Shown: positions 2,233 through 63,916 of the stretch, piece by piece
How positions within the stretch are numbered: the first letter of the stretch is position 1
Layout: every line of letters starts with the position of its first letter
From: Achatina immaculata
Lineage: Eukaryota; Mollusca; Gastropoda; Stylommatophora; Achatinidae
DNA: 64,000 nucleotides
Assembly (NCBI GenBank): GCA_009760885.1
Contig: CM019710.1
Location: 1,590,633 to 1,654,632, forward strand
Reading direction: 5' to 3'
The notes under the pieces: model-generated
What the model saw: the letters and a program-made list of their open reading frames with translations, nothing else
Told to the model about the DNA's origin: nothing
Databases searched by the model: none
Program-made: the position numbers and the translations under genes

Positions 2233-2233
<1 letters not shown>

Positions 2234-2295
<62 letters not shown>

Positions 2296-2308
2296 AAGAG
2301 AGAGAGAT
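2234..2308. repeat. (GA)n microsatellite
   Basis: About 75 bp of nearly pure GA dinucleotide with a few interruptions. Confidence 0.95.
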
Positions 2309-2409
2309 TACTAATGGTGACATCTGTTGAAAGGCTGAATTGCCTTTACTTAATTGGAATATATACTGTGCAACTTTTGATCCCTGATGTGGACGGAAGT
2401 TTGTCATTT

Positions 2410-4962: not shown

Positions 4963-5012
4963 AGGCTGGAGAGACTTTTGATCCCTGATGTGGACGTAAG
5001 TTTGTCATTTTG

Positions 5013-7310: not shown

Positions 7311-7372
7311 CTGTGGCATGAGGCTGGAGAGACTTTTGATCCCTGATGTGGACGTAAGTTTGTCATTTTGTC

Positions 7373-9410: not shown

Positions 9411-9466
9411 ATGAGGCTGGAGAGACTTTTGATCCCTGATGTGGACGTAAGTTTGTCATTTTGTCT

Positions 9467-10279: not shown

Positions 10280-10825
10280 CCTCGTGATTGAGACATGGAA
10301 TTTAACAGCTTTTGTATTTGATGTGGTCTGAGGTTTGATCGGAGGCTCATATGCGCCTAGTGCTTGACTATTCCTGTCCAGTGCCTGCTGTTATCATGCA
10401 CTGTGGTTAAATGTATGTAGATCCATGCAGTGAGGAGCGGATGATTATGGATCTATACATTGTTGTTCGATGATTGCGGAATATGGTATACGCTCTTCCA
10501 AGTTCTCGAATGTCGATTCACACGTGAGGGAGGCATGTAGTAACATGCGCTGATTGAGGGGGGGGGGGGGTGTAGTATCATCCGTTGTCGTGAAGGAGGC
10601 ATGTAGTATCATGCGTTGTCGTGAAGGAGGCATGTAGTATCATGCATTGTCGTGAAGGAGGCATGTAGTATCATGCGTTGTCATGAAGGAAGCATGTAGT
10701 ATCATGCGTTGTTGTGAAGGAGGTATGTAGCATCATGCGTGGACGTGAAGAAAGCATGTAGTATCATGCGTTGATTGGGATACATGTTTTATCATACGTT
10801 GACTGTGGCATGAGGCTGGAGAGAC
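10280..10825. repeat. Spacer copy 4 plus 31-bp satellite block 4
   Basis: Spacer, a G12-13 run, then about seven 31-bp units. The sequence then leaves the satellite at ACTACATGTATTAAAGC and enters the LINE-F leader. Confidence 0.88.
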
Positions 10826-10919
10826 TACATGTATTAAAGCTTAATAAATGCCAATACGTTTTCTCTAATTTGATTTATTCAAATTAACCGGACTTGGAGT
10901 TATTACATATTATTCACTA

Positions 10920-11180
10920 TGTCTAGTTCTAAGGACTGTTATAGCCGGAGGTGGGGTGGAGGATAAGCTCTCCACTACAATTAAATGTCTCCAAGGCCTG
11001 CGTCTCAAATAGCCTCTGACAGTCCAAGTCCAGCTCTTGGCCTTCTCGTGCCGGAACTTTAAACTGACAGGAGAATAAGCGAAAGGCGAGTACCTGGTGC
11101 CTGAAAACTAGACGCTTCGGGTAGATGAGACTTGTTAGTCTTGGTTGGTACCTCATCTAGGAGAAGGAAAACTGATTTCA
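10920..11180 (+). repeat. 250-bp module upstream of LINE-F (copy 1)
   Basis: About 250 bp starting at GACTGTTATAGCCGGAGG. It recurs in the tandem duplicate (12558-12818) and, inverted and diverged, at 19785-20030. It sits directly before the LINE-F leader, so it may be 5' UTR of that element. Short minus-strand frames here are not convincing genes. Confidence 0.75.
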
Positions 11181-11404
11181 AACCCCCTGCTGCTTTGTAG
11201 GTAGGCTCTGGTCAGAGTCAAAGGCTAGTGAAATAAACCATAAACAAACATGTGGAAGGCAAGGGGAGATCAACACTGTAAATTCCCAAGAACAATCATG
11301 ACAATCCACAATTCTTTGAATCATAACGACGTTAATGGGGGTTCCAGTGGAACCACCTCGTCCGGTAGGGTTTATCACATGCGACAGGTGACACCAGATA
11401 GTCA

Positions 11405-12000
11405 TCCAACTACTATTCGCAAATAAAACATAAGCAACACCACAGTAATTGCAATATGGAACATTAGAACACCAATAGATCTTGGAAAACTGGAAAACAT
11501 CGAAAGAAAAATGAAAAGAAAGGAAATTAACATCCTTGGTTTATATGAAATGAGATGGACTGGAGCAGGAAGCAGTGATCATAAAGACTTAAAAATAATA
11601 TATTCTGGGGGAAACCAGCGTAGAAATGGAGTTTGCATAATATTAGATAAGAAGACAGCAAGAACCGTGAAAAGTTTCTGGTGCATATTGGACGGAGTGT
11701 TAATGGTTAAATTAAAGGGCCACCCAATAGACAAAAATCTCATCCAAGTATACATACCAACTTCAGAAAGCTCTGATGATGAGATATTTTACAACAGTCT
11801 GGACATGGCAATGAAACAGTGCAAACCATGAGAAGTAAACTTTGTGCTAGGTGATTTAAACGCGAAAGTAGGGACTGAACAAGGCAATGAAGCTACTGGC
11901 AAGTATGGAATAGGTATCAGAAATACAAGAGGAGAGATGTTGATTGAGTGAGCAGAAAAGAATAAAATGATAATAGGAAATATTTGGTTTCAACAGCACC
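11405..12000 (+). pseudogene. LINE-F endonuclease fragment, copy 1
   Basis: Start of a LINE second ORF: an APE-type endonuclease that would nick target DNA for target-primed reverse transcription. Visible motifs are AIWNIRT (the usual N-terminal WN-R), LGLYEMRWTG, a VCIILDKK core strand, and FVLGDLNAKVG (the GDFNA-type motif). A TGA at 11829-11831 and another stop near 11950 break the frame. It ends in a CT tract at 12008 and has no reverse transcriptase attached in this copy. Confidence 0.85.
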
Positions 12001-12005
12001 AAAGG

Positions 12006-12007
<2 letters not shown>

Positions 12008-12054
<47 letters not shown>

Positions 12055-12055
12055 G
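12008..12055. repeat. (CT)n microsatellite
   Basis: Pure CT tract at the junction of LINE-F and the minus-strand LINE-G end. The duplicate tract lies at 13648-13699. Confidence 0.95.
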
Positions 12056-12129
12056 AACCTTAAGTGCCCAGGGCACATGGGGCTTCCGCAAGGGTTTTCC
12101 ACAAATACCTGTCCTTTGCCTTTTTTTCT

Positions 12130-13652
12130 GCTCTTCCAAGTTCTCGAATGTCGATTCACACGTGAGGGAGGCATGTAGTAACATGCGCTGATTGAGGGGG
12201 GGGGGGGGTGTAGTATCATCCGTTGTCGTGAAGGAGGCATGTAGTATCATGCGTTGTCGTGAAGGAGGCATGTAGTATCATGCATTGTCGTGAAGGAGGC
12301 ATGTAGTATCATGCGTTGTCATGAAGGAAGCATGTAGTATCATGCGTTGTTGTGAAGGAGGTATGTAGCATCATGCGTGGACGTGAAGAAAGCATGTAGT
12401 ATCATGCGTTGATTGGGATACATGTTTTATCATACGTTGACTGTGGCATGAGGCTGGAGAGACTACATGTATTAAAGCTTAATAAATGCCAATACGTTTT
12501 CTCTAATTTGATTTATTCAAATTAACCGGACTTGGAGTTATTACATATTATTCACTATGTCTAGTTCTAAGGACTGTTATAGCCGGAGGTGGGGTGGAGG
12601 ATAAGCTCTCCACTACAATTAAATGTCTCCAAGGCCTGCGTCTCAAATAGCCTCTGACAGTCCAAGTCCAGCTCTTGGCCTTCTCGTGCCGGAACTTTAA
12701 ACTGACAGGAGAATAAGCGAAAGGCGAGTACCTGGTGCCTGAAAACTAGACGCTTCGGGTAGATGAGACTTGTTAGTCTTGGTTGGTACCTCATCTAGGA
12801 GAAGGAAAACTGATTTCAAACCCCCTGCTGCTTTGTAGGTAGGCTCTGGTCAGAGTCAAAGGCTAGTGAAATAAACCATAAACAAACATGTGGAAGGCAA
12901 GGGGAGATCAACACTGTAAATTCCCAAGAACAATCATGACAATCCACAATTCTTTGAATCATAACGACGTTAATGGGGGTTCCAGTGGAACCACCTCGTC
13001 CGGTAGGGTTTATCACATGCGACAGGTGACACCAGATAGTCATCCAACTACTATTCGCAAATAAAACATAAGCAACACCACAGTAATTGCAATATGGAAC
13101 ATTAGAACACCAATAGATCTTGGAAAACTGGAAAACATCGAAAGAAAAATGAAAAGAAAGGAAATTAACATCCTTGGTTTATATGAAATGAGATGGACTG
13201 GAGCAGGAAGCAGTGATCATAAAGACTTAAAAATAATATATTCTGGGGGAAACCAGCGTAGAAATGGAGTTTGCATAATATTAGATAAGAAGACAGCAAG
13301 AACCGTGAAAAGTTTCTGGTGCATATTGGACGGAGTGTTAATGGTTAAATTAAAGGGCCACCCAATAGACAAAAATCTCATCCAAGTATACATACCAACT
13401 TCAGAAAGCTCTGATGATGAGATATTTTACAACAGTCTGGACATGGCAATGAAACAGTGCAAACCATGAGAAGTAAACTTTGTGCTAGGTGATTTAAACG
13501 CGAAAGTAGGGACTGAACAAGGCAATGAAGCTACTGGCAAGTATGGAATAGGTATCAGAAATACAAGAGGAGAGATGTTGATTGAGTGAGCAGAAAAGAA
13601 TAAAATGATAATAGGAAATATTTGGTTTCAACAGCACCAAAGGCGACTCTCT

Positions 13653-29934: not shown

Positions 29935-30023
29935 GATGTGAAGAGATTTACCTGCCCATGTGTAGGGGTCTGGTACCTTACACCCACACAAAACTGCCCA
30001 ACCAGTTCAACCACACCACACAG
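29935..30023 (+). CDS. Tandem-CRD protein, exon 2: N-terminal part of CRD1
   Basis: Encodes the first third of a Frizzled-type cysteine-rich domain: CEEIYLPMC, then VPYTHTKLPN and FNHTTQ. This is the family pattern C-x-x-I-x-L-P-x-C, (P)Y-x-x-T-x-x-P-N, with an N-glycosylation sequon NHT where Frizzleds often have one. The donor is CACACAG/GTAAGC after 30023 (strong, phase 0). The 5' border is less clear. AG at 29933-29934 gives phase 1 and matches exon 1, but its pyrimidine tract is poor. A much better acceptor (CTCTCTTAATTCAG, ending 29875) would read into TAA at 29895 in the CRD frame. Either the weak site is used or a one-base change in the sequence hides a longer exon. CRDs bind Wnt lipid or other acyl chains outside the cell. 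Confidence 0.8.
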
Positions 30024-39311: not shown

Positions 39312-39533
39312 CTGGAGGTGTACAAACAGCTGTCACATCTTTGGGCTTACATGGATCACTCATGCTCTAAAAACACCCGTGTCTTAATATGCTCCACCTA
39401 TCTGCCCAAGTGTCATGGAAGACAGCCTGCTCAAGGACCCTGCAAGAAAACCTGCATGTTGGCCAAGAAGAAATGTGCTAAACCTCTCAAGGATCTCATG
39501 AATTTTAACTGGGATGTCACATTGGAATGTAAG
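39312..39533 (+). CDS. Tandem-CRD protein, exon 3: rest of CRD1
   Basis: 74 codons in phase 0 at both ends. Acceptor TTAATCCACAG/CTGGAG; donor GTAAG/GTAAAA after 39533, chosen because the alternative TGTAAGG donor leads to a stop after splicing. It encodes the remaining CRD cysteines: LWAYMDHSC, RVLICSTYLPKC, QGPCKKTCMLAKKKC and FNWDVTLEC. This matches the Frizzled pattern F-L-C-S-x-x-x-P-x-C, P-P-C-R-x-x-C-x(6)-C and W-P-x-x-L-x-C. With exon 2 it completes one CRD with nine of the ten usual cysteines visible; the tenth follows in exon 4 (LPSKNC). Basic patches (KKTCMLAKKK) are unusual. Confidence 0.9.
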
Positions 39534-39552: not shown

Positions 39553-39832
39553 AGGGTTGTTGCTCTTGTTGCTGTTGTTATTGCTGCTGCTGCTTTTTTC
39601 ATTACTGTTGTTACTGTTGGTGTTATTATTGTTGCAGCAGCTTCTGTTGATGTTTTATTGTTGTTACTGCTGCTATTGTTGTTACTACTATTGTTTTTAC
39701 TGTTGTTGTTGCTGCTGCTGTTCTTGTTGCTTCTTCTGTTGTTACCATTATCATTGCTGTTGTTATTGAAGCTGTTGTTGCCGTTATTGTTTTTACCATT
39801 GTAGCTATTGTTATTACTGTTATTCTTGCTGT
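39553..39832. repeat. Trinucleotide array (TTG/CTG/TTA)n
   Basis: About 280 bp of imperfect GTT, GCT and ATT triplets, starting only 20 bp after the exon 3 donor. It lies in intron 3; its translations (poly-Leu, poly-Cys, poly-Asn) are artefacts. Confidence 0.93.
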
Positions 39833-49433: not shown

Positions 49434-49589
49434 GGCTTGCCATCTAAAAACTGTGTGAAGCCGGTGAAAGACACCAAGTGCCCATATGAGTACACCCATT
49501 GTATGGAGAACTCCGTCATATCTGTGTGTGCAAATCTGACCTTCGCTTTTGGAACAATGCCTAATATGTTTGGACAATGTAACACTGAT
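49434..49589 (+). CDS. Tandem-CRD protein, exon 4: linker and N-terminal part of CRD2
   Basis: 52 codons, phase 0 at both ends. Acceptor CTCTCTATCTCAG/GGCTTG (strong); donor GAT/GTTAGT after 49589 (moderate). It begins GLPSKNC, finishing CRD1 (exon 3 ends LECK; Frizzleds have C-x-R-L-P there). Then CPYEYTHC and CMENSVISVC lead into CANLTFAFGTMPNMFG, the CRD pattern C-x-x-L-x-Y-x-x-T-x-M-P-N, with sequon NLT. It ends QCNTD where exon 2 ends NHTTQ, so the intron position is the same in both domains. Confidence 0.88.
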
Positions 49590-49924
49590 GTTAGTTTATG
49601 CTAGAGAAAAATGTTTAAGCTCTGATTTCATGAATACAAAAATATTATTCCATTCACAGTGCTACAGTCACATTACTACAACCACTATCACTGTTGTGGC
49701 TACTACTACTACTGCTTATACTATGCTGGTTTCTTTTGCTACATGATGGCTACTGCCAGGAATAGTGTACATAGCCACTGCTGGGACCGGCATAGGCTAA
49801 TGAGATAATTCTGTCAACATCATCTGCATTATTAAATATTAGTAAATGTTCTGTGGGCGTGTAGTACACTTCAGTATTTTACCACAATCACCCTGTGATT
49901 TTGTTAACAGCCCTAGTATAAATA

Positions 49925-50360
49925 TTGTATTGCTAATAACACTGATATGTGAAGACAGAAGTTGGAGAACTTAATAATGACTGTAAAATTCAAGGGAAAA
50001 GGAGAGGGAGGCCAAGAGAAAAATATTGCATTTGACTGACCAAGTGGCATAGAAAAAAGAAAAGCATCTAAATTAATCAGGAACATCAAATGATCACCAA
50101 AGGAGCCAGGAGCACCAAATGATCACCAAAGCTATGAGCCAGGAACACCAAATGACCACCAAAGCTATGAGCTAGGAATACCAAATGATCACCAATGGTC
50201 AGAGCCTGCAAGAGAAATTTTAAAAGCCTGCGCAAAACTATCTTAAAACAGAAGAAGCCCTTTAAGTCCTTCCTTAAATCAGGGAAGATCTCCAGAGCAG
50301 TACACCAGCTGCACTCCCATCTCGGTGGACCTGCCAGTGCATGTAATGAATGAATGAATG
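49925..50360. pseudogene. LINE scraps
   Basis: GKGEGRPREK-like LINE C-terminal text at 49990-50030, three copies of an approximately 35-bp ACCAAATGATCACCAAAG unit at 50085-50200, and a (GAAT)n tail at 50347-50360 after CCTGCCAGTGCATG, like LINE-B ends. Confidence 0.6.
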
Positions 50361-50499
50361 TCGTAAATTCACCATTACAAGTAGTTCTAATATAATAAAT
50401 TCATTATTACTGGTAGCTCTAATGTAATAATGCTACATTGATTTTCTCAAAGTGAAAGTTATGGTTTAATGACATCACTGCCAGCATCTTCAAGTTAAC

Positions 50500-51100
50500 A
50501 TGCAACTGGCACTCTCAAGTTGTTTACCTGCTATAAGCTCATACAATATGACCCACTATCAGCACCCTCAAGTTGTTTACCTGCTACATGCTTATACAAT
50601 ATGACCCACTATCAGCACCCTCAAGTTGTTTACCTGCTATAACTTCATACAATATGGCCCACTATCAACACCCTCAAGTTGTTTACCTGCTATAAGTTCT
50701 TTCAGTATAACTCACTATCAGCAACCTCAAGTTGTTTACCTGCTATAAGCTCTTTCAATATAACTCACTATAAGCACCCTCAAGTTGTTTACCTGCTATA
50801 AGCTCTTTCAATATAACCCACTGTCAGAACCCTCAAGTTGTTTACCTGCTATAAGCTCTTTCAATATAACCCACTATCAGCACCCTCGAGTTGTTTACCT
50901 GCTAAAAGCTCTTTCAATATAACCCACTGTCAGAACCCTCAAGTTGTTTACCTGCTATAAGCTCTTTCAATATGAACCACTATCAGCACCCTCAAGTTGT
51001 TTACCTGCTATAAGCTCTTTCAATATGACCCACTATCAGCACCCTCGAGTTGTTTACCTGCTATAAGCTCTTTCAATATGACTCACTATCATTACCCTCA
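50500..51100. repeat. 53-bp minisatellite
   Basis: About eleven copies of a unit with TCAAGTTGTTTACCTGCTAT, AAGCTCTTTCAATAT and CCACTATCAGCACCC. Confidence 0.94.
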
Positions 51101-51338
51101 GAATGACCTACCACCAGCTTCTTCAAGTTGATCAAGTTGTAAAAGTGGATACCTGACAAACTTATGCTAGGAAAAAGAGCCTCTGACAATGGAGAACTCC
51201 TGTCTGCACAGTGAGATACATCAAATTATTCTGCCTACAACTGATGGGGAAACTGCAAGATTACGTGATGGTTAGATCTGTTTATGAGGAACATTATCAG
51301 AGCCCACAAAGGGTGAAAAAAAAAAATTACTGTCTCTA

Positions 51339-52628
51339 CAAGGGCTGATTGATAAGTTCTCTGCATAATGCATAACGGATTATTTGTCGACAACTTTTTT
51401 GAGTTATTTCTCAACATAGCCCCCCTGCAAGTTTATGCACTTAGTCCAGTGATCCTGGAGCATACTCATCCCTTTGTAAAAGTCAGTATCTTGTGCCAGT
51501 AGAAAGTGGTCTACAGCATGAATGATGTCATCATATGAAGCAAATTTGGGACCACTAAGCTCCTTTTTGAGTTTGGTAAACAAGTAAAAGTCTGAAGGAG
51601 CCAAATCTGGGGAATAAGGAGAATGTTCAAGAAGCTGGAAGCTGCATTTATGAGTGACAGCCATTGCCACCACCAACTTGTGAAATGGAGCATTGTCTTG
51701 ATGAAAGATGACTCCTCTCGTCAATTTCCCTCCAACCTTTTCCTTCAGTTTGACCCGCAGTTGCTTCACTAGATTAGCGTAATAGGGCCCGGTGACCATT
51801 CTGTCCCTTTTGAAGATAGTCTAACAATAGCACACCTTCTGCATCCCAAAAGATGGAAGCCATCTTTGCCTGCAGACAGAACAACCTTTGCTTTCTTTGG
51901 AGGTGGGGATCCATGATGTTTCCACTTCTTTGACTGTTCTTTGCTTTCTAGTTGAAAATAATGAACCCAAGTCTCATCTGTAGTCACAAATTGCTGAAGA
52001 AACTTTTCAGGATCTGCAGAAAAATGGCCAAGATTGTCTCTTGACATGTTGAGACGCTGTTGTTTGTGATCATCTTCAAGATGTTTCTTGACCCATCGAG
52101 CAGAGACCTTTGTCATTTGAAGATCATTGTGAATAATGGCATTAACTTGTTCCTGGGAGATGCTCAATTCAGTAGCAATGTACTGCTCAGTTGGTCGTTG
52201 ATCCTCCATTATCATGTCATGGATTCTGCCAGTGGTTTCATCAGTGGTTATCATTCTTGGTCTTCTTGGACGGGGATCATCTTCCAGACTCTCCCTTCCA
52301 TGTTTGAATTGAGCTGCCCATTTGTTCACTGTGCTGTAAGAAGGGGCACTCTCCCTTAGAGTCTGCACCATATCCTCATGGATCTCCTTTGATGAAAAGC
52401 CCTTGATGCAGAGGCAGCGAATGACTGTTAGATGAGAAATGTTATGCATTTTCTCAATTTCTGCTATCCCTTACCATTCAGTAGCCTGTAAAAAAAAAAC
52501 TGGTTGCAGTTAATTTCTTGAAACTTGGTGTTTAATCTTACATTAACCTGATCTACAAATGCACATAATATCAACTGTGTGTTTCAAATATTTATACCTT
52601 ATGCTGAGAACTTATCAATCACCCCTTG
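51339..52628 (-). mobile_element. Mariner DNA transposon (complete, frameshifted)
   Basis: 1290 bp bounded by TA dinucleotides (51337-51338 and 52629-52630). Imperfect inverted ends of about 30 bp: CAAGGGCTGATTGATAAGTT at the left and, read inward from the right, CAAGGGGTGATTGATAAGTT. The length is normal for mariner, and one transposase gene fills the minus strand. Confidence 0.93.
51401..52449 (-). pseudogene. Mariner transposase with two frameshifts
   Basis: Cut-and-paste transposase of the mariner family. ATG at 52449. Residues 1-110 hold the paired helix-turn-helix DNA-binding region (YSTVNKWAAQFKHGRESLEDDPRPRR). The WVPHxL-type linker is ARWVKKHL at about 117-124. Catalytic triad: D158 in VTTDETWVHYF, then HQDNAPFH and HSPYSPDLAPSD, with 34 residues between the second and third Asp (DD34D, as in mariner). 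The frame shifts near 51865 (after VVLSAGK) and again near 51795; the middle piece reads ASIFWDAEG in a third frame and ends at a stop. The last frame ends LQGGYVEK. Domain content is complete, so this is a young loss. Confidence 0.92.
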
Positions 52629-52644
52629 TATCTCCACTGCAGCT

Positions 52645-52925
52645 GCCATTACTATACTACAGCTACTCTTACTACTATACAGCTGCCTCTACTACACTAC
52701 AGCTACAGCTACCATTACTACACTATAGCTACAATTACTACACTATAGCTACCATTACTACACTATAGCTACATTACTACACTATAGCTACATTACTACA
52801 CTATAGCTACATTACTACACTATAGCTAAATTACTACACTATAGCTACATTACTACACTATAGCTACATTACTACACTATAGCTACAATTACTACACTAT
52901 AGCTACAATTACTAAAATACAGTTA
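52645..52925. repeat. ~20-bp minisatellite
   Basis: Repeats of CTACACTATAGCTACATTA, with CTACAATTA and CTACCATTA variants, just outside the right end of mariner. Confidence 0.93.
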
Positions 52926-53013
52926 CCTCTGCAACTATACACCTGCCCATACAACTATACTACATTTTAATCTCTGACATTTAGCACTGTATTCACTGTT
53001 GTTCTTGATCCAG

Positions 53014-53163
53014 GAACTTAATGCAGAGATCCAACAGTTCAACATGTTGCTCGCAACCAATTGCCACCTGAATCTCAAGTTTCTGCTCTGTGGAATTTTC
53101 TCTCCTTTCTGTGTCAGAAATGAGGTTCCTTTCTCTTTGCCTTGCAGGGAGATTTGTGAGGAG
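53014..53163 (+). CDS. Tandem-CRD protein, exon 5: middle of CRD2
   Basis: 50 codons, phase 0. Acceptor GTTCTTGATCCAG/GAACTT; donor GAGGAG/GTAAGT after 53163. It encodes ELNAEIQQFNMLLATNC, LKFLLCGIFSPFC and SLPCREICEE, a near-textbook CRD core (F-x-x-L-x-x-x-C, F-L-C-S-x-x-x-P-x-C, P-C-R-x-x-C-E). The exon's last ~30 bp and its donor form the first unit of a 45-bp tandem array that runs on to 53572, so several equally good in-frame donors lie downstream. Using donor n would add 15(n-1) residues of repeated FSLPCREICEE-type sequence to the protein. Confidence 0.92.
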
Positions 53164-53572
53164 GTAAGTAGATCTTTCTCTTTGCCTTGCAGGGAGATTT
53201 GTGAGGAGGTAAGTAGATCTTTCTCTTTGCCTTGCAGGGAGATTTGTGAAGAGGTAAGTAGATCTTTCTCTTTGCCTTGCAGGGAATTCTGTGAGAAGGT
53301 GAGTAGAGAGTTCTCTTTGCCCTGCAGGGAATTCTGTGAGAAGGTGAGTAGATCTTTCTCTTTGCCCTGCAGGGAATTCTGTGAGAAGGTGAGTAGATCT
53401 TTCTCTTTGCCTGACAGAGAGTTTTGTGAAGAGGTGAGTAGAGCTTTATCTTTGCCTTGCAGGGAATTCTTTGAGGAGGTGAGTAGAACTTTATCTTTGA
53501 CCGCAGGGATTCTTTGAGGAGGTGAGTAGAGAGTTCTCTTTGCCCTGCAGGGGGTTCTGTGAGAAGGTGAAT
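53128..53572. repeat. 45-bp tandem array carrying exon end and splice donor
   Basis: About ten copies of a 45-bp unit: TTCTCTTTGCCTTGCAG, then GGAGATTTGTGAGGAG, then GTAAGT or GTGAGT. Units 1-3 have GTAAGT, units 4-9 GTGAGT, unit 10 GTGAAT. Units 1-8 are in the exon 5 frame; unit 9 has lost bases. Each unit also holds a pyrimidine tract and CAG, that is, an acceptor-like site 16 bp before the donor. Confidence 0.95.
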
Positions 53573-54080
53573 GGAACTCTCTGAACATGATCAGAGGATG
53601 TGGATTGAAAGGAGAGTCAGAGAGTGAAAGAAGAAAATCAGTGAATGAAAGAAGAGTTGGAAAAAAAATCTATGAACATGATGACAGAGGATGTGGTGTG
53701 AATGATAGGTGTCTTTCACATATTCAGAATATATCAGAGGAAAGAGTGATATGTGCTGGTTATCTGTGAGTGTTAGTTAGCTACAGCTTTGGTTTCATCC
53801 AATCTTCATTCTAAAATTAAAGTCCATACCACAGAGGCCACAGGAAAAAAAAAAATTTTATGTGCACAAAAATGTAAGTCTGCCTAATACACAAGGTATG
53901 CCCAAATGTACAGTATTTGTTTGCTAACAGAATGAGCAACAGGAGAAAATAAGATAACTCATTATATAATACAGCTAATCAGTTCAAGAGAAAGAAACAG
54001 AAATGGAAATAGCTATAGCTCTTATTTATGACGAAAAAAAAGGAACATTTTCTACCCAAAATTCCCTGTTGTTTTCTCAG
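53573..54080. other. Rest of CRD-gene intron 5
   Basis: No repeats or coding signature; ends in CCTGTTGTTTTCTCAG, a strong acceptor. Confidence 0.7.
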
Positions 54081-54227
54081 ATTCGACAGTCATGTGAGCC
54101 ACATTACAAACGACTGTACCATGACCTCCCATGGCCACAAAAACTCCAATGCCACAGATACCCAACAAGTGAAAACACAGACATTGAGTGTGTCATGCCC
54201 AATGAAGGATCTACTTTTTTTGGATGA
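54081..54227 (+). CDS. Tandem-CRD protein, exon 6: end of CRD2 and stop
   Basis: Acceptor TTGTTTTCTCAG/ATTCGA, phase 0. It encodes IRQSCEPHYKRLYHDLPW, QKLQCHRYPTSEN and DIECVMPNE, then STFFG and TGA at 54225-54227. Joined to exon 5 it gives C-EEIRQS-C, the same six-residue spacing as C-MLAKKK-C in CRD1, followed by the W-P-x-x-L-x-C and final Cys of the family. So CRD2 is complete. Read straight through, the protein ends 12 residues after the last Cys with no membrane anchor. Total predicted length is 292 residues. An internal donor (ACAA/GTGAAA at 54168) could instead lead to further exons, and I see no clear poly(A) signal soon after the stop, so the end is provisional. Confidence 0.85.
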   Translation: MRQSCEPHYKRLYHDLPWPQKLQCHRYPTSENTDIECVMPNEGSTFFG

Positions 54228-54725
54228 TAAGGGAACATTCATCTTATATCTATCAAGAATTAATGAATATGATAATGAATATGATGGAAGCAATAACTTT
54301 ACTTTTGTAAACATAAACTTGAAATTTTTCAAAAATTTGAATGTGCTGCAGATTCAGTTTCTTGCCAGTTCTAAATACAAAACTATTGCCCTTTCAGCTC
54401 AAATGAAGTGACCTGTTCAATTTGACCACAAGTATTTGCCACTCAGTGCGAGTCATTTCGCATTGGTCATCTTTCACTAACTGCTATTTCATTTTTATGT
54501 AGTATTAAGAAATAAGGGGGGTAATCACTGGACAATTTATTCTACAGACTCTGTCAAGTTTATAAATCTGACTTGGACATAGTTCATAAATCTGCTTTTG
54601 TTTATAAATTTCACTGCACACTGATCATGAATGTAACTTTTAGATTTTGTGTGACAAAATTAGTGAACATTATAAATCTGACAGTGAAACTTTGCTTGAC
54701 AGAATTAATGAATGTTTTTAAATCT
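54228..54725. other. Presumed 3' UTR or flank, nothing recognised
   Basis: AT-rich with loose repeats of TTTATAAATCTGA near 54560-54730. No AATAAA within the first 300 bp. Confidence 0.5.
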
Positions 54726-55230
54726 GATTTTTAGACGTTATATGACAGAAGCAGCTAAACATCACCAGATCTATCTTTGGTATGACAGAAGCAGCTAAAC
54801 ATCACCGGATCATTTCTAAAGGTTTGTCTTGCCTGGCACGGAAGGCGACCATGAAATAAATTTTAAAAAAAAGGTGGTCTTTCTACCCAGGTTAAGTTTA
54901 ATCAACAACCCTCACCACACACACGTGGTAAAATTATCTAGGAAACCCATGCGGGCACTAAAAAATAAAAAAATTTTTTTAATCTTTGGTATGACAGAAG
55001 AAGCTAAACATCACCGGATCTATCTTTGGTATGACAGAAGCAGCTAAACATCACCAGATCTATCTTTGGTATGACAGAAGCAGCTAAACATCACCAGATC
55101 TGTCTTTGGTATGACAGAAGCAGCTAAACATCACCAGATCTATCTTTGGTATGACAGAAGCAGCTAAACATCACCAGATCTATCTTTGGTATGACAGAAG
55201 CAGCTAAACATCACCAGATCTGTCTTTGGA
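54726..55230. repeat. 40-bp minisatellite split by SINE-2
   Basis: Eight or so copies of a 40-bp unit (TATGACAGAAGCAGCTAAAC, ATCACCAGATCTATCTTTGG) at 54740-54806 and 54985-55230, interrupted by a SINE-2 copy. hAT begins at the last unit. Confidence 0.93.
54808..54984 (+). mobile_element. SINE-2 copy 1
   Basis: Non-coding insert, GCCTGGCACGGAAGGCGACC ... CTACCCAGGTTAAG ... CCCTCACCAC, ending in an A/T-rich tail, inside the 40-bp array. Same family as 55270-55416. Family unknown to me. Confidence 0.75.
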
Positions 55231-55269
55231 CAGGGTTGCCAGACATCTGTTTTCTGGTACAGTCCCAGT

Positions 55270-55416
55270 ACTAATCCTAGAATTATATCAGTACAAGGAT
55301 TACTTACCTGGCATGGAAAACGACCATGGTGGTCCTTCCGCCCAGGCTAAGAAAATTTTAATACAAAAACCCTCACCACCACAAGGTGGTTCACTTTCAT
55401 CCTTGCAAGTGTAAAA
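55270..55416 (+). mobile_element. SINE-2 copy 2, nested in hAT
   Basis: 147-bp insert (CTGGCATGGAAAACGACC ... GCCCAGGCTAAG ... CCCTCACCACC) flanked by GGTACAGTCCCAGT at 55256-55269 and 55417-55430, a perfect 14-bp target-site duplication. Confidence 0.9.
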
Positions 55417-55740
55417 GGTACAGTCCCAGTTTTTAAATAAAAAAATTCACTGTCCCAAATAATGCTTTTGGGACACCTATTTGTCCCCGTCTTTAGTTTT
55501 CATTTCAAATAGAAGAATTTTGCATTCAAATTCTTTTCTCTCCCTATGATTTCAGCCTGGCAGAACTGCTATACATATTTTAAAACAACAATAAGACAGT
55601 GGAAACTTAATTTGTTATCTCTGTCTCTGGGTTGGAACTGGCTCACATTTTGTGCAGTTTTATGTCATTTCATTTTTCCTTCAGTTGTCTTCACAAGAGA
55701 GACATTTTATATTGGTGGTATCATAGAATATGATTTCTTT

Positions 55741-56565
55741 GTCACAGAACCAAGCATAAAAATTGGAGGATACAATATTAACAACCTTCGGTATGCTGAT
55801 GACACAGTACTGATAGCTGAGAACCAACAAGACCTGCAAAATCTCTTGGATAAAGTCGCCAAAGAAAGTGAACAGAAAGGCTTTACTTTGAACATCAAAA
55901 AGACAGAGACTATGGTTATATCTAAGAAACAGAATCCACCAGCATGCAGTATAAAATTAAATGGAACTATTCTAAAGCAGGTGCAGAAATTCAAATACCT
56001 TGGAGCAGTAATAACTTCAGATGGGAAATGCAGAACAGAAATTAGGAACAGAATAGGCCAAGCAAAGACTGCGTTTCAGAGAATGAGAAACGTATTAACC
56101 AACACATCCTTATCAATGAATGTTAGAAAACGAGTCCTAAAATGCTATATTGAACCTATCTTGTTATATGGAAGTGAATCATGGACAATAGGCAAGTCTG
56201 CACAAAAATCATTGGAAGCAGCAGAAATGTGGTTTATTAGAAGAATGTTGCGAATCCCCTGGACAGCAAAAATAATTAATGAAGAATGTATGAGAAGAGC
56301 TGGAGAGACAAAAAACCTTGTCAAAAAGATAAGAGAAAGACAATGTACTTTCATAGGACATGCAATGAGAAGAGGGGGCATTGAAAATATTATAACAACA
56401 GGAAAAATAGAAGGAAGAAGATCAAGAGGAAGACCAAGAGAAATGATACTGGACAGTCTGACGGGATGGTGTGAGAGGAGATCACCAACTGAGCTGATGG
56501 CCTGCATGAAGGATCGGATACTCTGGAGAAGCATAATAGCCAACGCCAGTTGGCACGACACATGA
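55741..56565 (+). CDS. LINE-C reverse transcriptase, C-terminal part (open, partial)
   Basis: An open frame of about 274 codons, continuous by chance with upstream hAT sequence from 55546. Motifs: RYADDTVLIAENQ (palm, YADD intact), KTETMVISK, KFKYLGAVITSDGKC (the thumb-proximal YLG), ILLYGSESW, WFIRRMLRIPWTA, CTFIGHAMRRGG, GRRSRGRPREMILDSL and WRSIIANASWHDT at the end. It lacks the endonuclease and RT N-terminus. Its copies in this window carry (GAT)n tails. Confidence 0.87.
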   Translation, partial: VTEPSIKIGGYNINNLRYADDTVLIAENQQDLQNLLDKVAKESEQKGFTLNIKKTETMVISKKQNPPACSIKLNGTILKQVQKFKYLGAVITSDGKCRTEIRNRIGQAKTAFQRMRNVLTNTSLSMNVRKRVLKCYIEPILLYGSESWTIGKSAQKSLEAAEMWFIRRMLRIPWTAKIINEECMRRAGETKNLVKKIRERQCTFIGHAMRRGGIENIITTGKIEGRRSRGRPREMILDSLTGWCERRSPTELMACMKDRILWRSIIANASWHDT

Positions 56566-56575
56566 TGATGATATG
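55741..56575 (+). mobile_element. LINE-C copy, 5'-truncated, nested in hAT
   Basis: Starts at TEPSIKIGGYNINNL and runs to the family 3' end with a short (GAT)n tail (CATGATGATGATATGG). It is the best-preserved LINE-C here and serves as the reference for the copies at 22515, 28053 and 42662. No clear target duplication seen. Confidence 0.88.
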
Positions 56576-56949
56576 GTATCATATCCTTTTCACAGCTCTG
56601 TACCAAAAGAAAACAACATCTGTGTAACAAAACTCAGACTCTTATAATCAAGAAATTACTTCAACTAAGGTGTGACATTTTCCCTGTCCACTGTCTTAAA
56701 TTGTTTTTGGAGACTAGAGTGGTTGCAAGTTTAACACGTTTTGGTGAAAAATAAAAAATCTCTTTTACCATTATCTGTGCCATAGCTCTGAAAATCAGTA
56801 ATGTATTTCTGGCTGTATTTCTCTCTTATGACTAGTGAAAGAAAGAAAAATAAGTGCTTTTTTACAAAAAGCCAGTGTTGAGAGAAACCCATGTTCTTTT
56901 TTTTTTTAATACTACTGGTGTTACAATAATTACATGAAGTGTTTTCAAA

Positions 56950-57660
56950 ATGTCTAAGAGAAAGTGTCTTTTTCAGGAAAACTATTCACAAGAATGATCT
57001 TTTATAAAACGAGGGAGAAATGACCATGAAGCAGAATGCAAAATATGTGTTACGTTGCCTCTGCACATGCGGAAGAGCGAATATACGTAAAACACCACCT
57101 AGCAAGTGAAAAGCATAAATCAGACATGTATTCTGCAAACATTTCTAAAAGGCTGGACAGTTGTTTTGTGGCAAAATCTTCTGAACAGGAAAAATCAGTA
57201 CAAATGCAGAACTAACAACATGCTACCAAATAATTATACATCATATGTTGTTCAGTTCAATGAAGTGAAAAACCATGTTGAGATGTAAAATTTTTAATGA
57301 TTAAAAAAAAAATTGTGGCACTGGGGAGAACTAAAGCAACAGCAATAGTAACATCCATTTGAGCTCCTGACACTACCAAACAATTATGTGATAATTTAGC
57401 AAATGCGCACTATTTTGACATTGCAACCGATACTAGTAACCATGACGCTGAGAAAATTTTCCCATTGATTGCTCTGTACTTTAGTCCTAAAAATGGTATG
57501 ACCATAAAATGACCTAGTTCCTTAAAATGTGAAGTTGGTTCTGAAATAATCAATTACTGTTTTAATGCATTAGAAGAAAACAATATTGATAAATGCAAAT
57601 GCACTGCATTCTGTGATGACACTGATAATACAAATTTTGGTACTATTCTTTATTAGTAAT
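56950..57660 (+). pseudogene. hAT transposase N-terminal part, decayed
   Basis: Begins ATG at 56950 (MSKRKCLFQENYSQE, then a stop), continuing SFIKRGRNDHEAECKIC and LASEKHKSDMYSA, a BED-type zinc finger with C-x2-C and H-x3/4-H. The hAT core start follows: TKATAIVTSI, FDIATDTSNHDAEKIFPL, YFSPKNG and CTAFCDDTDNTNFG. SVDTSN- and FCADN-like motifs are characteristic of hAT proteins of the ZBED/SCAND3 type. Stops and a frame break after LRKSEYT make it dead, and the C-terminal dimerisation domain is absent. It lies inside the hAT ends at 55231 and 57743, with which it agrees. Confidence 0.82.
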
Positions 57661-57751
57661 TAATGATGATATTTGAATAGCTTTTCTTTTTTCAGTCTGA
57701 GAAAAATGTCCGTGTTGTTCGCTTACAGAATCTGGCAACCCTACCTTTGCA

Positions 57752-58033
57752 AGAAAAAAAACACTGAATTATTTAAAAATTTTACATTTTCTAAAATTTG
57801 TCACTGACTTTCTGCCAAATGATAAATCATGTAGTGAGTAAAATAATGATGTTAATTAATTTTAAACTATTATTTACTCTTAGAATGTTTTTCCTATGTT
57901 TGATGACCTTGGAATATCATACACTGAACAATTTATTACTGGATCAGCAAAATATTTTAAGATGGTATCAATAATTCTGGCCTAAGACTCCAAGTAATCT
58001 CTTAGAAACATACTTTCTTCAGATAAATGTAAG
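57752..58033. other. No feature recognised
   Basis: AT-rich flank of the hAT element. Confidence 0.5.
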
Positions 58034-58440
58034 TTGGACATCTACTTTCACTCAAAAGTTGGAGAGCTACATTCACTCTAAGTCAGACTGCTACATTCAC
58101 TCTAAGTTGGACAGCTGCTTTCACTCTAAAGCTGGAAACCACTTTCACTCTAAAGTTGGGCAGTAATTTTCACTCTTTTTGAACAGCTGCCTTCACTTTA
58201 AGTTGAACATCTACTTTCACTCGAAAGCTGGACAACTACTTTCACTCTAAAGCTGGACAACTACTTTCACTCTAAAGCTGGACAACTACTTTCACTCTAA
58301 AGCTGGACAACTACTTTCACTCTAAAGCTGGACAACTACTTTCACTCTATAAAGTTGGACAGCTATGTTCACTCTAAAGTTAGATGGCTGCTTCTATGTT
58401 CACTCTAAAGTTAGATGGCTGCTTTCACTCTAAAGTTGGA
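58034..58440. repeat. 24-bp minisatellite
   Basis: About sixteen copies of TTCACTCTAAAGCTGGACAA plus CTAC. The centre (58220-58345) is uniform and the edges are diverged. Confidence 0.94.
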
Positions 58441-58744
58441 CATTTGCAGGTGATCAAGACACCAACTCTCTTTCTTGCAGTGCCCCCCTGTGCCAAAGCA
58501 GCAGCCTGATAGACAAAGCTGGGATCAGTGTGGGTAGAGTCGGGGGAGGCTTTGCTCAGAAATCGGACATTGTTGCCAGCTGGAGGGCATTATCCAATTC
58601 TGTTGTGTATATCTCTAGATGTAATTAATGGCATGATAGGTTTCTTTCATAATCATCATTACAGCCATCATCATTATCATTTGGAAGAAGACAGCAAGCA
58701 CAACTTGTCAATTTTCAGAACAATATACATGGCTTCATGCATGA

Positions 58745-59165
58745 TTCTTCAGTTTCTAAATCTTGCTGTTTTTGTGTGGATTACAAGTTATATTGAACAG
58801 TTTCTAAATCTTATCATTTTTGTGTAGATTATAATTGCTATATAATAGTTTCTAAATCTTGCAATTTTTATATAGATTACAAATTGTCTAGAACAGTTTC
58901 TGAATCTTGCCCTTTTTGTATAGATTACAGGTTCTACAGAACATGTTCTAAATCTTGCCATTTGTATGTAGATTACAAGTTCCATACAACATATTCTACG
59001 TCTTGGCATTTTTGTGTGAATTATAAGTTCTGCAGAGCAGTTTCTGAATCTTCTCATTTTTATTTGCCTGTAAGTTCTGTAGAATCTTATTACCTTTATG
59101 TGAGCTAAAAATGCCATAGAATAGTTTCTAAATCTTGTTATCTCAGTCTGAACTACAAGTTCTAT
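58745..59165. repeat. Diverged ~48-60-bp repeat
   Basis: Eight or so imperfect copies around CAGTTTCTAAATCTTGCC, TTTTTGTGTAGATTACAAG. A frame of about 130 codons on the minus strand is repeat translation. Confidence 0.88.
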
Positions 59166-59184
59166 AATAAAAGGTAATGCTCGC

Positions 59185-59378
59185 ACATGGGGGATATGAT
59201 GTTAGTGCCCTTGATCTGTCAGCACATGGGGGATATGTTAGTGCCCTTGATCTGTCAGTACATGGGGGATATGATGTTAGTGCCCTTGATCTGTCAGCAC
59301 ATGGGGGATATGATGTTAGTGCCCTTGATCTGTCAGCACATGGGGGATATGTTAGTGCCCTTGATCTGTCAGCACACT
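59185..59378. repeat. 36/39-bp minisatellite
   Basis: Five copies of CACATGGGGGATATGATGTT and AGTGCCCTTGATCTGTCAG, with or without a 3-bp GAT. Confidence 0.94.
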
Positions 59379-59464
59379 AGATAATTTGTTATTAGCATCA
59401 TGCCTGGTTGCCTTCCTTTCCCCAGCTCCAGAATAAGCTAGCTACCCATTTCCACAGCTGATAT

Positions 59465-59630
59465 ACTAGGGCACCTTCAGCTTGATAGACTAGGCCACTT
59501 TCAGCTTGATAGACTAGGGCACTTTCAGCTTGATAGACTAGGGCACCTTCAGCTTTATAGACTAGGGCACTTTCAGCTTGACAGACTAGGGCACTTTCAG
59601 CTTGACAGACTAGGGTACTTTCAGCTTGGA
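59465..59630. repeat. 24-bp minisatellite
   Basis: About seven copies of TAGACTAGGGCACTTTCAGC plus TTGA. A tRNA-like scrap follows at 59640-59700 (CCGCCAGCTTTCACTTTGAG). Confidence 0.92.
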
Positions 59631-59829
59631 TTCAAACCGCCAGCTTTCACTTTGAGCGATTAGTGCATTAACTGCTTTGCTAGTCAGGTGCCCCTAGGTT
59701 CTGAAGATCATGTCATTTTGACATGGACTACAACCGATATAGAATAGTTTATTGCCACTTTTATGTTTTCAATAGGATCCTGATTTTATGTGAAATATAA
59801 GTAATAAAGAACACTTTACAATATCTTGC

Positions 59830-60125
59830 CACTTTTATGAGAAGTAAAAGTTTAGTAGAATCTTGATTTTATGCAAAATACAAGTTTCTGATACAGTAAT
59901 ATCAATTCTAAAGCCACATTTATGAGAAGTAAGAGTTGAGTAGAATCTTGATTTTATGATACAGTAATATCAATTCTAAAGCCACATTTATGAGAAGTAA
60001 AAGTTTAGTAGAATCTTGATTTTATGATACAGTAATATCAATTCTAAAGCCACATTTATGAGAAGTAAAAGTTGAGTAGAATCTTGATTTTATGATACAG
60101 TAATATCAATTCTAAAGCCACATTT
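59830..60125. repeat. ~68-bp minisatellite
   Basis: Four copies of a unit with TCTAAAGCCACATTTATGAG, AAGTAAAAGTTGAGTAGAAT and GATACAGTAATATCAA. Confidence 0.92.
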
Positions 60126-60630
60126 CACAGACGAAGACGTGTCAAAACAGGGACACAGATTAGTAAATATTTAAAATGATGACAAAAAAATTACCCATGA
60201 TGCAAATTTTGTAGTAAGAATCCCAGTGTGACAACACAAGCGCAACTGTTTCTGGAGACAAGGAGCAAGAAGTACCAGCAGACATTTTCTGAGTACTAGA
60301 TGTCTGCAGCTCAGCAGCCATATGTACCTTAATATAACTTGAGACGTTTGCTGACCAGAAAAATATTTGTATAGGACCATTAATACATGGAGTATGTGAA
60401 CTGTCTAGGGTTAATGGATGAAGTGGGATGGGGTTTTGGTTTATCTTCTGATAACAACTGAGATCAGTACTGTCAATTTTAGAATCTCCAACTTGGATTA
60501 ACAAATATCTAAAAATATTCATATCCTAGACCTACAAGACTCTACAAAACAAAACTCACCGACAATTTCATGGAAATCTGGCACACCAGAACGCGAGTAA
60601 TAAATGCGCCATTGCTTTACTTTGATGTTA
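60126..60630. other. No feature recognised
   Basis: Non-repetitive. A minus-strand frame of 120 codons (60160-60522) has no domain I can name and no clear splice borders. Confidence 0.45.
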
Positions 60631-60635
60631 TAAAT

Positions 60636-60920
60636 GTTTAAAATAGCAGGAACTAGCCTATATGAATGTTTAAAATAGCAGGAACTAGCCTATATGAATG
60701 TTTAAAATAGCAGGAACTAGCCTATATGAATGTTTAAAATAGCAGGAACTAGCCTATATGAATGTTTAAAATAGCAGGAACTAGCCTATATGAATGTTTA
60801 AAATAGCAGGAACTAGCCTATATGAATGTTTAAAATAGCAGGAACTAGCCTATATGAATGTTTAAAATAGCAGGAACTAGCCTATACAAAAGTTTAAAAT
60901 AACAGGAACTAGCCTATAAT
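60636..60920. repeat. 32-bp minisatellite
   Basis: Nine copies of AATGTTTAAAATAGCAGGAA plus CTAGCCTATATG, nearly identical. Confidence 0.95.
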
Positions 60921-60950
60921 TTTTGTAACATCCCGTTGATATTTTATTTT

Positions 60951-61155
60951 GGCGGCCTGGGTGGCTGAGTAGTTAGGCGCTCGGTTTACTAATCCGGTGG
61001 TATCTGGTTCAGTCCCAGCAGTGGGGATTTTTTTCTGGTACAAGACCGAAAAAGGCCCCGGGTCGACCCAGCCTCTAAAAATGGGTACCAAAGAAATCTG
61101 GAAAGGTAAAGGGGCCAGGCGTGATACTGACCACATCAAACTTTCATGTGCCGAA
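60951..61155 (+). mobile_element. SINE-1 family copy, plus strand
   Basis: tRNA-like head with an A-box-like TGGCTGAGTAGTTAGGCGC and B-box-like GGTTCAGTCCC, then the body GGGTCGACCCAGCCTC, ATGGGTACCAAAGAAATCTG and the tail ACATCAAACTTTCATGTGCC. Its tail meets the tail of the next copy. Confidence 0.83.
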
Positions 61156-61424
61156 AAGTAAAGTAAAGATAGTCCCATAGCAAATGCCGTAGGGGGTGAA
61201 GCGTTAGAGACCTCATTATGCTGGGTCATCAGCGTATGAGATAGGGTGGCCAGTTCCTTTCCTCGCTGCCTTTACTTCCCAGATTTTCTCTGGTACCCAT
61301 TTTACGAGGCTGGGTCGACCTCGGGGCCGTATTGGTCGGAAAAAAAGTCCCGCTCAGCTGGGGATTCGAACCCTCGACCATTTGGTTGCTAGACGAGTGC
61401 TCTAACCACTACGCTAGCCGGCCC
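61156..61424 (-). mobile_element. SINE-1 family copy, minus strand
   Basis: Read from 61424: GGCTAGCGTAGTGGTTAGAG (A box) and GGTTCGAATCCCC (B box), then GAGGTCGACCCAGCCTC, AATGGGTACCAGAGAAAATC. The head differs from the neighbour's but the body is the same. It is not a functional tRNA gene: there is no proper acceptor stem pairing or anticodon arm. Confidence 0.82.
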
Positions 61425-61574
61425 CGTGTGCCGAAGCTCATGGAAAATACGGGGCCTTAGTGGCATGGAGACAGGAACTTCACCTTACCTGGTGATATTT
61501 TATTTTTAGAACAGTAATCGCAGTTACCATAACTAGTACTAATAGTACTACACTACAGTCAACAGTTTTGAACT

Positions 61575-61890
61575 GAATAAAACATAAACATGACCTAAAT
61601 CACGACATTAACATGATCTAAATCGCGACATTAACATGACCTAAATATCGACATTAACATGACCTAAATCACGACATTAACATGATCTAAGTTACACCAT
61701 TAACGTCGTCAGAGTCCCGTCATTAACAATGATCTAAGTTACATCTTTAACATCGTCTAAGTCACAACATTAACATGACTTAAGTCACAACATGTGCATG
61801 ACCTAAAAATCACATTAGCATGACCCGAAGTCACAACATTACCATGACCTAAAAGTTACAACATGAACATAACCTAAAAGTCACAACATG
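61575..61890. repeat. 22-24-bp minisatellite
   Basis: About thirteen diverged copies of ACATTAACATGACCTAAATC plus AC(G). Confidence 0.92.
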
Positions 61891-62126
61891 AACATTTTAG
61901 AATTGAAAGCTGAATGCTCTTATGAAAACAAAATGTCTGACTACGAAACAAACAGTCACTTCTGTTGAGAATACTCACTGGGACCACAACTTTTTCTAAG
62001 AGCACATTTAGCTTATCAGGCAAAGTGGAAACGTTATCAAACACAATAAAGTACTCCACAGATGAGACACGATGAAATGGCGAGGGCAAATACGAGAATG
62101 CCCAAGAGTTGAAATTTGACATAAGG

Positions 62127-62130
<4 letters not shown>

Positions 62131-62170
<40 letters not shown>
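62131..62170. repeat. (CT)n microsatellite
   Basis: Pure CT, about 40 bp. Confidence 0.95.
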
Positions 62171-62172
<2 letters not shown>

Positions 62173-62745
62173 TAAATTTGAAAGTTAATATCTCTTACTA
62201 GCACGTCCCTGTCAAATACGCTTTGCTGCAACTCGCAGAAGCAATTCACTAATTGCCCAGCGCTGTTCAAATATTAAACGCCCTCTTTATGCTATAGCCA
62301 AGGCCAGTCAAATGGCAACGCTGTTCTAACGAATTTCATTAAACATGTTTTTGTCTTTCCATCGTTGTGTCAAGAACTGATCAAAGCAACAGTAATATTA
62401 AATTAGATGTGAAGATAATACTTCATGCCATCAATTTCCTGAAAGTGTTGAACATGACAGTTATTCAAATTATTTTTCAAAAGTTGGGACAGTGAGGCTG
62501 TTCATTTCTCATTAAATATGTTATAGCTCATACAGCTCAGCTTTGTGTGAAAGTCTCCAGAGTTGCAATGCTCCATGTCACGGGGACAGTCTCGATAGTA
62601 ACAAAATATTGTGGAGACAGAGATGATTTTTTTTAATGAAAAAGCACAATGAAGACATTTTTGTTTCATTTTTAAATGTTTAGTTTTGTCAGTGATAGTT
62701 GTCTGTAAATATTTACAGAATTTAGATATCTTACAAGAACGTTCT
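62171..62745. other. No feature recognised
   Basis: Non-repetitive DNA with no coding signature. Confidence 0.45.
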
Positions 62746-62749
62746 GTTT

Positions 62750-63030
62750 TTACAGTTTGTGAGTTTAGATTAATGTTTTATTTTGTTTCCATGCTGTGTA
62801 AGTTTAGATAACGTTTTTATTTTATTTTTCCACGCTGTGCCGTGAGTTAAGATGATATTTTATTTTATTTTTCCGGGCTCTGTGAGTTAAGATGACGCTT
62901 TACTGTATGTTTCTATGCCCCGTCAGTTGAAATGATGTTCTACTTTATTTGTCCGCGTCCCATGAGTTTAGATAATGTTCTAATTTATCTTTCCACGCTC
63001 CGTGAGTTTACTTGATGCTGTTATTTATGT
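62750..63030. repeat. Diverged ~55-bp repeat
   Basis: Five or so copies of GAGTTTAGATAATGTTTTAT followed by TTTATTTTTCCACGCT. Confidence 0.8.
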
Positions 63031-63044
63031 TTGCACATTCGATA

Positions 63045-63250
63045 CTTTGTTATTTTATCCTTCCTCTTATACCGTGAAGTGTCGATGGGAGATGCAGCTG
63101 GCACTTTTGGGCCGTATGAGCGGCCTTTGTTCACGCCGTAATTCACGAGTATTTCTATAACACTATCTATCCATCTTTTTCGGGGTCTTTCTCTTGATGT
63201 GTGTCCTGTAGTTCTTTGGTTGAAGGCCCTCGCGGCTGGCTGTATATATG
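63045..63250 (-). pseudogene. LINE 3' scrap
   Basis: Minus-strand text RTTGHTSRERPRKRWIDSVI, then GRSYGPKVPAAS and IDTSRY; the RPRKRW-D motif is the usual LINE C-terminal signature. Family not assigned. Confidence 0.65.
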
Positions 63251-63916
63251 TGTCATTCACGTTAAGAGGCCAAAGCACTTAATTCTGTTCCTTAAGTATT
63301 GTAGGCATGGTGTAGTTCCTACCAATTGTATACTTTACTTCGGTGAACTACAATTTTTCTACTGACTTTAAAGAAAGTGGAGACTTCTTTTCAACACCCC
63401 TTACCGACAGCTCCTTAAAAACTTCTATAAATCAACTGATTTAATTTTCATATTTTATATTCATTCTTTCTATTACGAGAAGATTATGCAGGAAATGAAT
63501 AGTAACTAATGAGACAGTTCGGAAAAGCGATCCGTCTCAAATTATTTTACGAAATTAGAAAAGTACGGCGCGGGCCGCACGCTTCATGAGAAAATCTCAC
63601 TTTTCAATGATAAAATATTGTTCTATGAAATTTATACAAGGAAGTGAACAGTACAGGTCGAGAGGACCCTCGCTAACTTTAGCCCAGAAGCCAGGACGGC
63701 GGTTAATCTATCACTGATTCACTTCCTTTCACTAATTTAGCACTTGAAAATTAAACCTCACTTTGATAACAGATATCTTGTGATATAAGAGGACTAGCTA
63801 GTGACAGAAAATATCTTTACTTGACAAATTAAAAGTAATATAAACGCCTCTCTGCTACTCTTTCGGTAGCAAAGTACAGTAAAATACAAGCACACATCAC
63901 TAAGACATTGACAAAC
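63251..63916. other. Possible intron of the edge gene; nothing recognised
   Basis: AT-rich, non-repetitive. If the exon at 63917-64000 is real, this would be its first intron. Confidence 0.4.

Follow-up and report, generated by a model that had tools for sequence, protein, structure and literature searches.

A minisatellite that repeats an exon end and its 5' splice site in a predicted two-Fz-domain gene of Achatina immaculata

INTRODUCTION

A minisatellite made up of splice donors was reportedly found by Turri, Cuin and Porter in 1995 in the human gene IFI6 (6-16, G1P3). The repeat unit of IFI6 is 12 bp long, which is a multiple of three. Two units lying downstream are reported to serve as donors (PMC4526556). 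In amphioxus, minisatellite-like tandem duplications of exon-intron boundaries have been described in globin genes and are termed "mirages," a name given to the Adh3 case and adopted for the globins; according to that description, AG/GT signals are present in many, not all, of the units, and the length varies (PMC3087553). Adh, troponin C, and globin mirages are listed in another account, which likens PGBD5 repeats to them (PMC3902484), and the Adh3 and globin data reportedly suggest that regular splicing stays intact (PMC3087553), mirages being said to give no aberrant mRNA (PMC3087553, PMC3902484). For human genes, variable tandem repeats at exon-intron boundaries are reported as potentially altering splicing or forming introns (PMC2812944).

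Here, we describe an array of this sort from a snail gene. It had been presented originally as a system without a named counterpart, which was wrong, as the amphioxus mirages (PMC3087553, PMC3902484) and the human IFI6 minisatellite (PMC4526556), as described in these sources, are of the same kind. Together with the human paralog repeats, these precedents place the array within a known kind of boundary minisatellite.

RESULTS

Ten in-register units at the end of exon 5

The window analyzed, i.e., the whole stretch of 64,000 nucleotides of A. immaculata DNA, contains a boundary array at the end of exon 5, whose presence was confirmed (Table 1). The original prediction of about ten in-register copies of the exon end plus its 5' splice site was borne out, since exactly ten units were found. 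TRF delimited the array at positions 53129 to 53570, with a period of 45, 9.9 copies, 87% matches, and a score of 558, compared with a top score of 50 among 200 dinucleotide shuffles of positions 52920 to 53800. When the array was split at the donors and the units were aligned, units 1 to 8 and 10 turned out to be 45 bp long and unit 9 (53490 to 53532, plus strand) to be 43 bp long. The 45-bp unit comprises 34 bp of the end of exon 5 and 11 bp of the start of intron 5 (the 6 donor bases and 5 more); as in the mirages, the tandem copies thus run across the boundary of a gene, here a predicted one. Splice signals are likewise present in many units, with a GTRAGT donor in 9 of 10 and a CAG before the 16-nt exon-like segment (15 nt in unit 9) in all 10.

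The segment encoded is LPCREICEE in units 1 to 3, LPCREFCEK in units 4 to 6, LPDREFCEE in unit 7, and LPCREFFEE in unit 8, and the expectation that every unit would add LPCREICEE holds for the first three only, variant segments being found in units 4 to 8. Elsewhere in the window, the unit gave four matches of only 11 to 15 bp (E values of 0.025 to 0.43), which we judged to be due to chance. The searches for relatives in a viral and a bacterial/archaeal collection, where an animal gene is not expected, gave 20 and 84 pattern matches, respectively, with none confirmed in either.

Table 1. Features of the predicted gene and of the array at the end of exon 5 (positions in the window)
Feature	Position	Strand	Description	Evidence
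Exon 2 (part)	29937..30023	+	From first CRD cysteine to donor; acceptor not settled	Local HMM, joined model
Exon 3	39312..39533	+	222 nt, phase 0; most of first Fz CRD	Pfam Fz, joined model
Exon 4	49434..49589	+	156 nt, phase 0; closes first Fz CRD and encodes N-terminal part of second	Weak local HMM match (10.2 bits), sequence, joined model, edges
Exon 5 (via donor 1)	53014..53163	+	150 nt, phase 0; middle of second Fz CRD	Pfam Fz, PDB match, edges CCAG/GAA and GAG/GTAAGT
Minisatellite	53130..53577	+	10 units	TRF, unit split at donors, alignment
Donor 1	53164..53169	+	GTAAGT; leaves second Fz domain uninterrupted	
Donors 2 to 9	53209..53527	+	GTAAGT (2) and GTGAGT (6), starting at 53209, 53254, 53299, 53344, 53389, 53434, 53479, and 53522	Computed U1 duplex energy same as that of donor 1
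Donor 10	53567..53572	+	GTGAAT	Computed U1 pairing, -6.9 kcal/mol
Exon 6	54081..54227	+	Last part of second Fz CRD, then stop codon TGA	Pfam Fz, joined model, edges

The host gene is predicted to encode two Fz domains

In the predicted gene model, exons 2 to 6 encode two Fz domains. Over its 253 residues, which start at the first CRD cysteine and end at the stop codon, the model scored 138.9 bits in two stretches against PF01392 (Pfam gathering cut-off, 32.1 bits). Exons 3, 4, and 5 all have lengths that are multiples of three and are joined in phase 0, and since exon 4 seems to complete the first Fz domain and to begin the second, both domains would belong to one gene. The local HMM used alongside Pfam was built from five Frizzled-type sequences and a sixth joined from window sequence; it placed exons 2 and 3 and, weakly, exon 4. 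When exons 5 and 6 were joined at donor 1, the product reached 60.9 bits for Pfam Fz and matched a PDB chain of Frizzled-8 at an E value of 3.1e-14. Pfam Fz, the local HMM, and the joined model all bear out the claim that the array lies inside an Fz CRD, across the exon 5 end and its donor.

Within the window, the gene does not have the makeup of a Frizzled receptor: the model stops in exon 6 straight after the second CRD, and a Pfam search of the three plus-strand frames of positions 54228 to 63900 revealed no seven-helix Frizzled membrane region and only a reverse transcriptase fragment. No Rfam family (at the gathering score) and no tRNA was found in the window. Remnants of a mariner-type transposase are present on the minus strand of intron 4 (51407 to 52470), with a Mos1-type HTH domain scoring 32.9 bits, above the cut-off, and a DDE piece scoring 17.4 bits, below it. 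GTT/GCT-rich repeats occupy positions 39556 to 39767, starting about 20 bp past the exon 3 donor.

Nine of the ten donors are alike in computed U1 pairing

The listing of the donors agreed with the claim of a consensus donor in nine copies, GTAAGT in three and GTGAGT in six; the remaining one is GTGAAT. The U1 duplex energies computed for donors 1 to 9 ranged from -12.3 to -12.4 kcal/mol, so that donor 1 was indistinguishable in its U1 pairing from donors 2 to 9. The pairing computed for the exon 2, 3, and 4 donors was weaker (-11.0, -6.8, and -1.5 kcal/mol, respectively), the last being a GTTAGT (49590 to 49595), in contrast to the nine strong donors that follow exon 5.

Joining to exon 6 is in frame from donors 1 to 8, each unit adding 15 residues, and leads to a stop inside the array from donors 9 and 10. 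The idea that donor choice would change the protein in 15-residue steps is thus correct for donors 1 to 8 but not for the last two, because unit 9, being two bases short, breaks the frame. In the donor 1 form, the second Fz domain was matched in one stretch both by the local HMM (positions 4 to 113, 79.6 bits) and by Pfam (positions 5 to 109, 74.0 bits), whereas with each of donors 2 to 8, the local HMM match was broken into at least two pieces. In Pfam, the summed, whole-protein Fz score of the donor 2 form was 77.3 bits in two stretches and thus not below that of the donor 1 form.

Published experiments suggest which of these donors may be chosen. In a set of minigenes, two identical, strong donors lay 52 nt from each other, with flanking introns of 365 nt; every construct tested spliced from the upstream donor only, a result reported to hold under exon definition (PMC9225289). 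Exon definition would be expected for exon 5 as well, since the introns on both of its sides are long (3,424 nt for intron 4, positions 49590 to 53013, and 917 nt for intron 5). Older classical work cited in the same paper describes a preference for the intron-proximal donor (PMC9225289), by which the late copies would be favored. Judging from these other systems, of which the cited minigenes compare two donors as opposed to the nine strong ones here, donor 1 is probably the one used.

The units vary without sparing the donor

Four of the 6 donor columns are invariant, compared with 26 of the 45 columns of the unit (P = 0.50 for at least that many, with the little power that ten units give), and for columns -3 to +6, the count is 6 of 9 (P = 0.42, with the same little power). 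The invariant share being similar in both, the donor shows roughly the same conservation as the other parts of the repeat, and donor-specific conservation was rejected, as there was no excess over the 45 aligned columns. The variable columns numbered 6, 5, and 8 of 15 at codon positions 1, 2, and 3, respectively, which is too few to argue for coding constraint.

Damage is seen in units 7 to 10: a Cys is lost in unit 7 and another in unit 8, two bases are missing from unit 9, and the donor is weakened in unit 10. These lesions would matter if the units were coding. Units 1 and 2 do not differ at all; one column sets unit 3 apart from both, and one column likewise sets unit 5 apart from unit 6; all the unit pairs other than 1 and 2 differ at 1 to 12 of the 45 columns. 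The identity of units 1 and 2 and the one-column differences fit local repeat turnover, of which they are a usual mark. In a mirage, local homogenization between units would be expected to leave out the edges of the cluster. Here, the most divergent units are 7, 9, and 10; unit 7 is internal, and the first unit, at the 5' edge, is not divergent.

The exon-like segments do not work as coding microexons

Each unit had also been read as a 16-bp microexon with its own acceptor. The acceptor-like CAG is indeed there in every unit, but the segment, which in unit 9 is 1 nt shorter, fails as a coding device: in 8 of the 9 single inclusions after donor 1, a stop appears three codons past the junction, and the neighboring donor-to-acceptor gaps are only 28 to 29 nt, so this candidate was ruled out. 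The sole single inclusion in frame was that of unit 9. A stop three codons past the junction was also met when exon 4 was spliced straight to unit 1 and in the one triple inclusion tried (units 3, 5, and 7). The gap from donor 1 to acceptor 3 is 74 nt.

The array lies in a window crowded with minisatellites

Counting arrays with a unit of at least 10 bp and a score of at least 100, we found that 37 merged arrays cover 24.3% of the window and 30 arrays cover 13.1% of the part from 11 to 64 kb; five shuffled windows contained none. One of eight mapped splice edges (a count without exon 1 edges or the exon 2 acceptor) lies in an array, and the expectation under circular shifts was 1.95 edges for the whole window and 1.05 for 11 to 64 kb. 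At least one edge fell in an array in 77% and 61% of the shifts, respectively (P = 0.61 to 0.77). In a window this crowded with minisatellites, one of eight edges within an array is to be expected; the placement is at chance level, and the overlap of array and edge needs no special cause.

Positions 1 to 10300 form a block of interlocking minisatellites (21 to 47 bp of the TTGTCTAAACAGTTCTGTGGG type, 31 bp of the CGTGAAGGAGGCATG type, and others) with 81% coverage and a strong GC skew. Another minisatellite, with a 19-bp unit (ACTACACTATAGCTACATT), extends over positions 52647 to 52914 and ends about 100 bp 5' of the exon 5 acceptor, so that arrays flank exon 5 on both sides. In the region from 10501 to 13638, a stretch of about 1.5 kb (10501 to roughly 12000) recurs base for base 1,638 bp downstream (100% identity in fifteen 100-bp steps), and both copies carry the same reverse-transcriptase-like ORFs; this could reflect tandem duplication in the very recent past or an effect of assembly.

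DISCUSSION

We hold with good confidence that the array is a boundary minisatellite that arose by slippage or unequal exchange, that the gene is spliced mainly at donor 1, and that the extra copies are drifting. A 45-bp segment that by happenstance lay across the edge of exon 5 and intron 5 would have been expanded in a two-Fz-domain gene located in a minisatellite-crowded stretch of the genome, and the extra copies would be intron sequence. The spliceosome would define exon 5 from its upstream acceptor and use donor 1 in most transcripts, the downstream donors being used rarely or not at all, while the extra copies drift and their number varies between individuals; length polymorphism of the array is likely. 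Since a minisatellite-rich genome can be expected to yield such an overlap without selection, a row of intact splice sites alone is not evidence of function. Such a locus is a natural test bed for the choice made by the splicing machinery among nine near-identical strong donors. With it, the known boundary minisatellites come to include one in a Frizzled-domain gene.

The downstream donors may nevertheless be used to some extent, as in IFI6. Donor 1 would then be the main one, and donors 2 and 3, perhaps up to 8, would yield in-frame isoforms of minor abundance, lengthened within the second Fz domain by 15, 30, and so on up to 105 residues, with no selected function. Donors 2 to 9 do match donor 1 in U1 pairing, donors 1 to 8 are in frame to exon 6, and two downstream units are reported as donors in IFI6 (PMC4526556). 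However, identical competing donors under exon definition are reported to give the upstream product only (PMC9225289), the amphioxus mirages are said to yield no aberrant mRNA (PMC3087553, PMC3902484), and each insertion splits the local Fz match, although the summed Pfam score of the donor 2 form is no lower. We regard such minor use as possible but the less expected outcome; as it shades into the explanation by drifting copies with downstream donors employed rarely if at all, our confidence in each overlaps with that in the other, and the two need not sum to one. It is far harder to credit a functional splicing ladder, the idea put forward originally, in which regulated donor choice would tune the second Fz domain by 15 residues at a time. 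The frame is open across eight units and nine of ten donors have the consensus, but copying one 45-bp unit with little divergence would by itself give an open frame and intact donors. Constraint specific to the donor is absent (P = 0.50), cysteines are lost in units 7 and 8, and the frame is lost in unit 9; the ladder is also unsupported by the reported minigenes with identical donors, which favor the first donor under exon definition (PMC9225289). Just as improbable is its hypervariable form, in which copy number and donor choice would together give up to eight in-frame proteins, with one to eight LPCRE(I/F)CE-type segments (most with two cysteines) in the second Fz domain, differing between individuals and tissues.

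The units might instead act as poison microexons, a 16-nt segment included between donor 1 and exon 6 adding a stop and lowering the output of the gene. Most units have a CAG acceptor and a strong donor, almost every single inclusion and the exon 4-to-unit 1 form do carry the early stop, and the distance from donor 1 to acceptor 3 is longer than that between neighbors. Against this, an exon of 16 nt is far under the usual size, the adjacent gaps are short, and the stop is a side effect of reading the copied exon end in a shifted frame, with no added signal, all of which makes this reading very unlikely. We also give little credence to a copy number made or inflated by misassembly. An extra or a lost copy could escape notice because units 1 and 2 are identical, and a 1.5-kb tandem duplication without mismatches, in another part of the window, could itself be real or an artifact; however, the differences among the remaining unit pairs make most copies distinct, and 36 further merged arrays with a unit of at least 10 bp are present in the window. 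The explanation by slippage or unequal exchange and splicing mainly at donor 1 is the one we retain.

Among the systems described, intron gain by tandem duplication (the Rogers model and potato RdRp) resembles the present case in that duplicated splice signals can supply donors and acceptors (PMC4974935). Here, however, with gaps of 28 to 29 nt and a 16-nt piece whose inclusion disrupts the frame, there is no sign of a new intron. The tandem repeats of human paralogs, as reported, are also variable minisatellites at exon-intron boundaries, but they occur within segmental duplications and came to light when transcripts were compared with the genome (PMC2812944), whereas the array here is a single locus read from genomic sequence. 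As in IFI6, tandem copies lie at the end of an exon, several of them providing donors, and the unit is a multiple of three, 12 bp there and 45 bp here. Use of two downstream units is reported for IFI6 (PMC4526556). With the amphioxus mirages (Adh3, the globins BflGb6 and BflGb9, and troponin C), as these have been described, the array shares minisatellite-like copies of a boundary, many of them with splice signals, and possibly turnover among copies (PMC3087553, PMC3902484). In the mirages, either edge of a real exon may be repeated; here it is the 5' splice site side, present 10 times, in a unit of different make, with its acceptor-like CAG coming from coding sequence. What is particular to the present array is that each unit brings its own acceptor-like CAG, that the 45-bp step stays in frame over eight units, and that the host gene is one with Frizzled domains.
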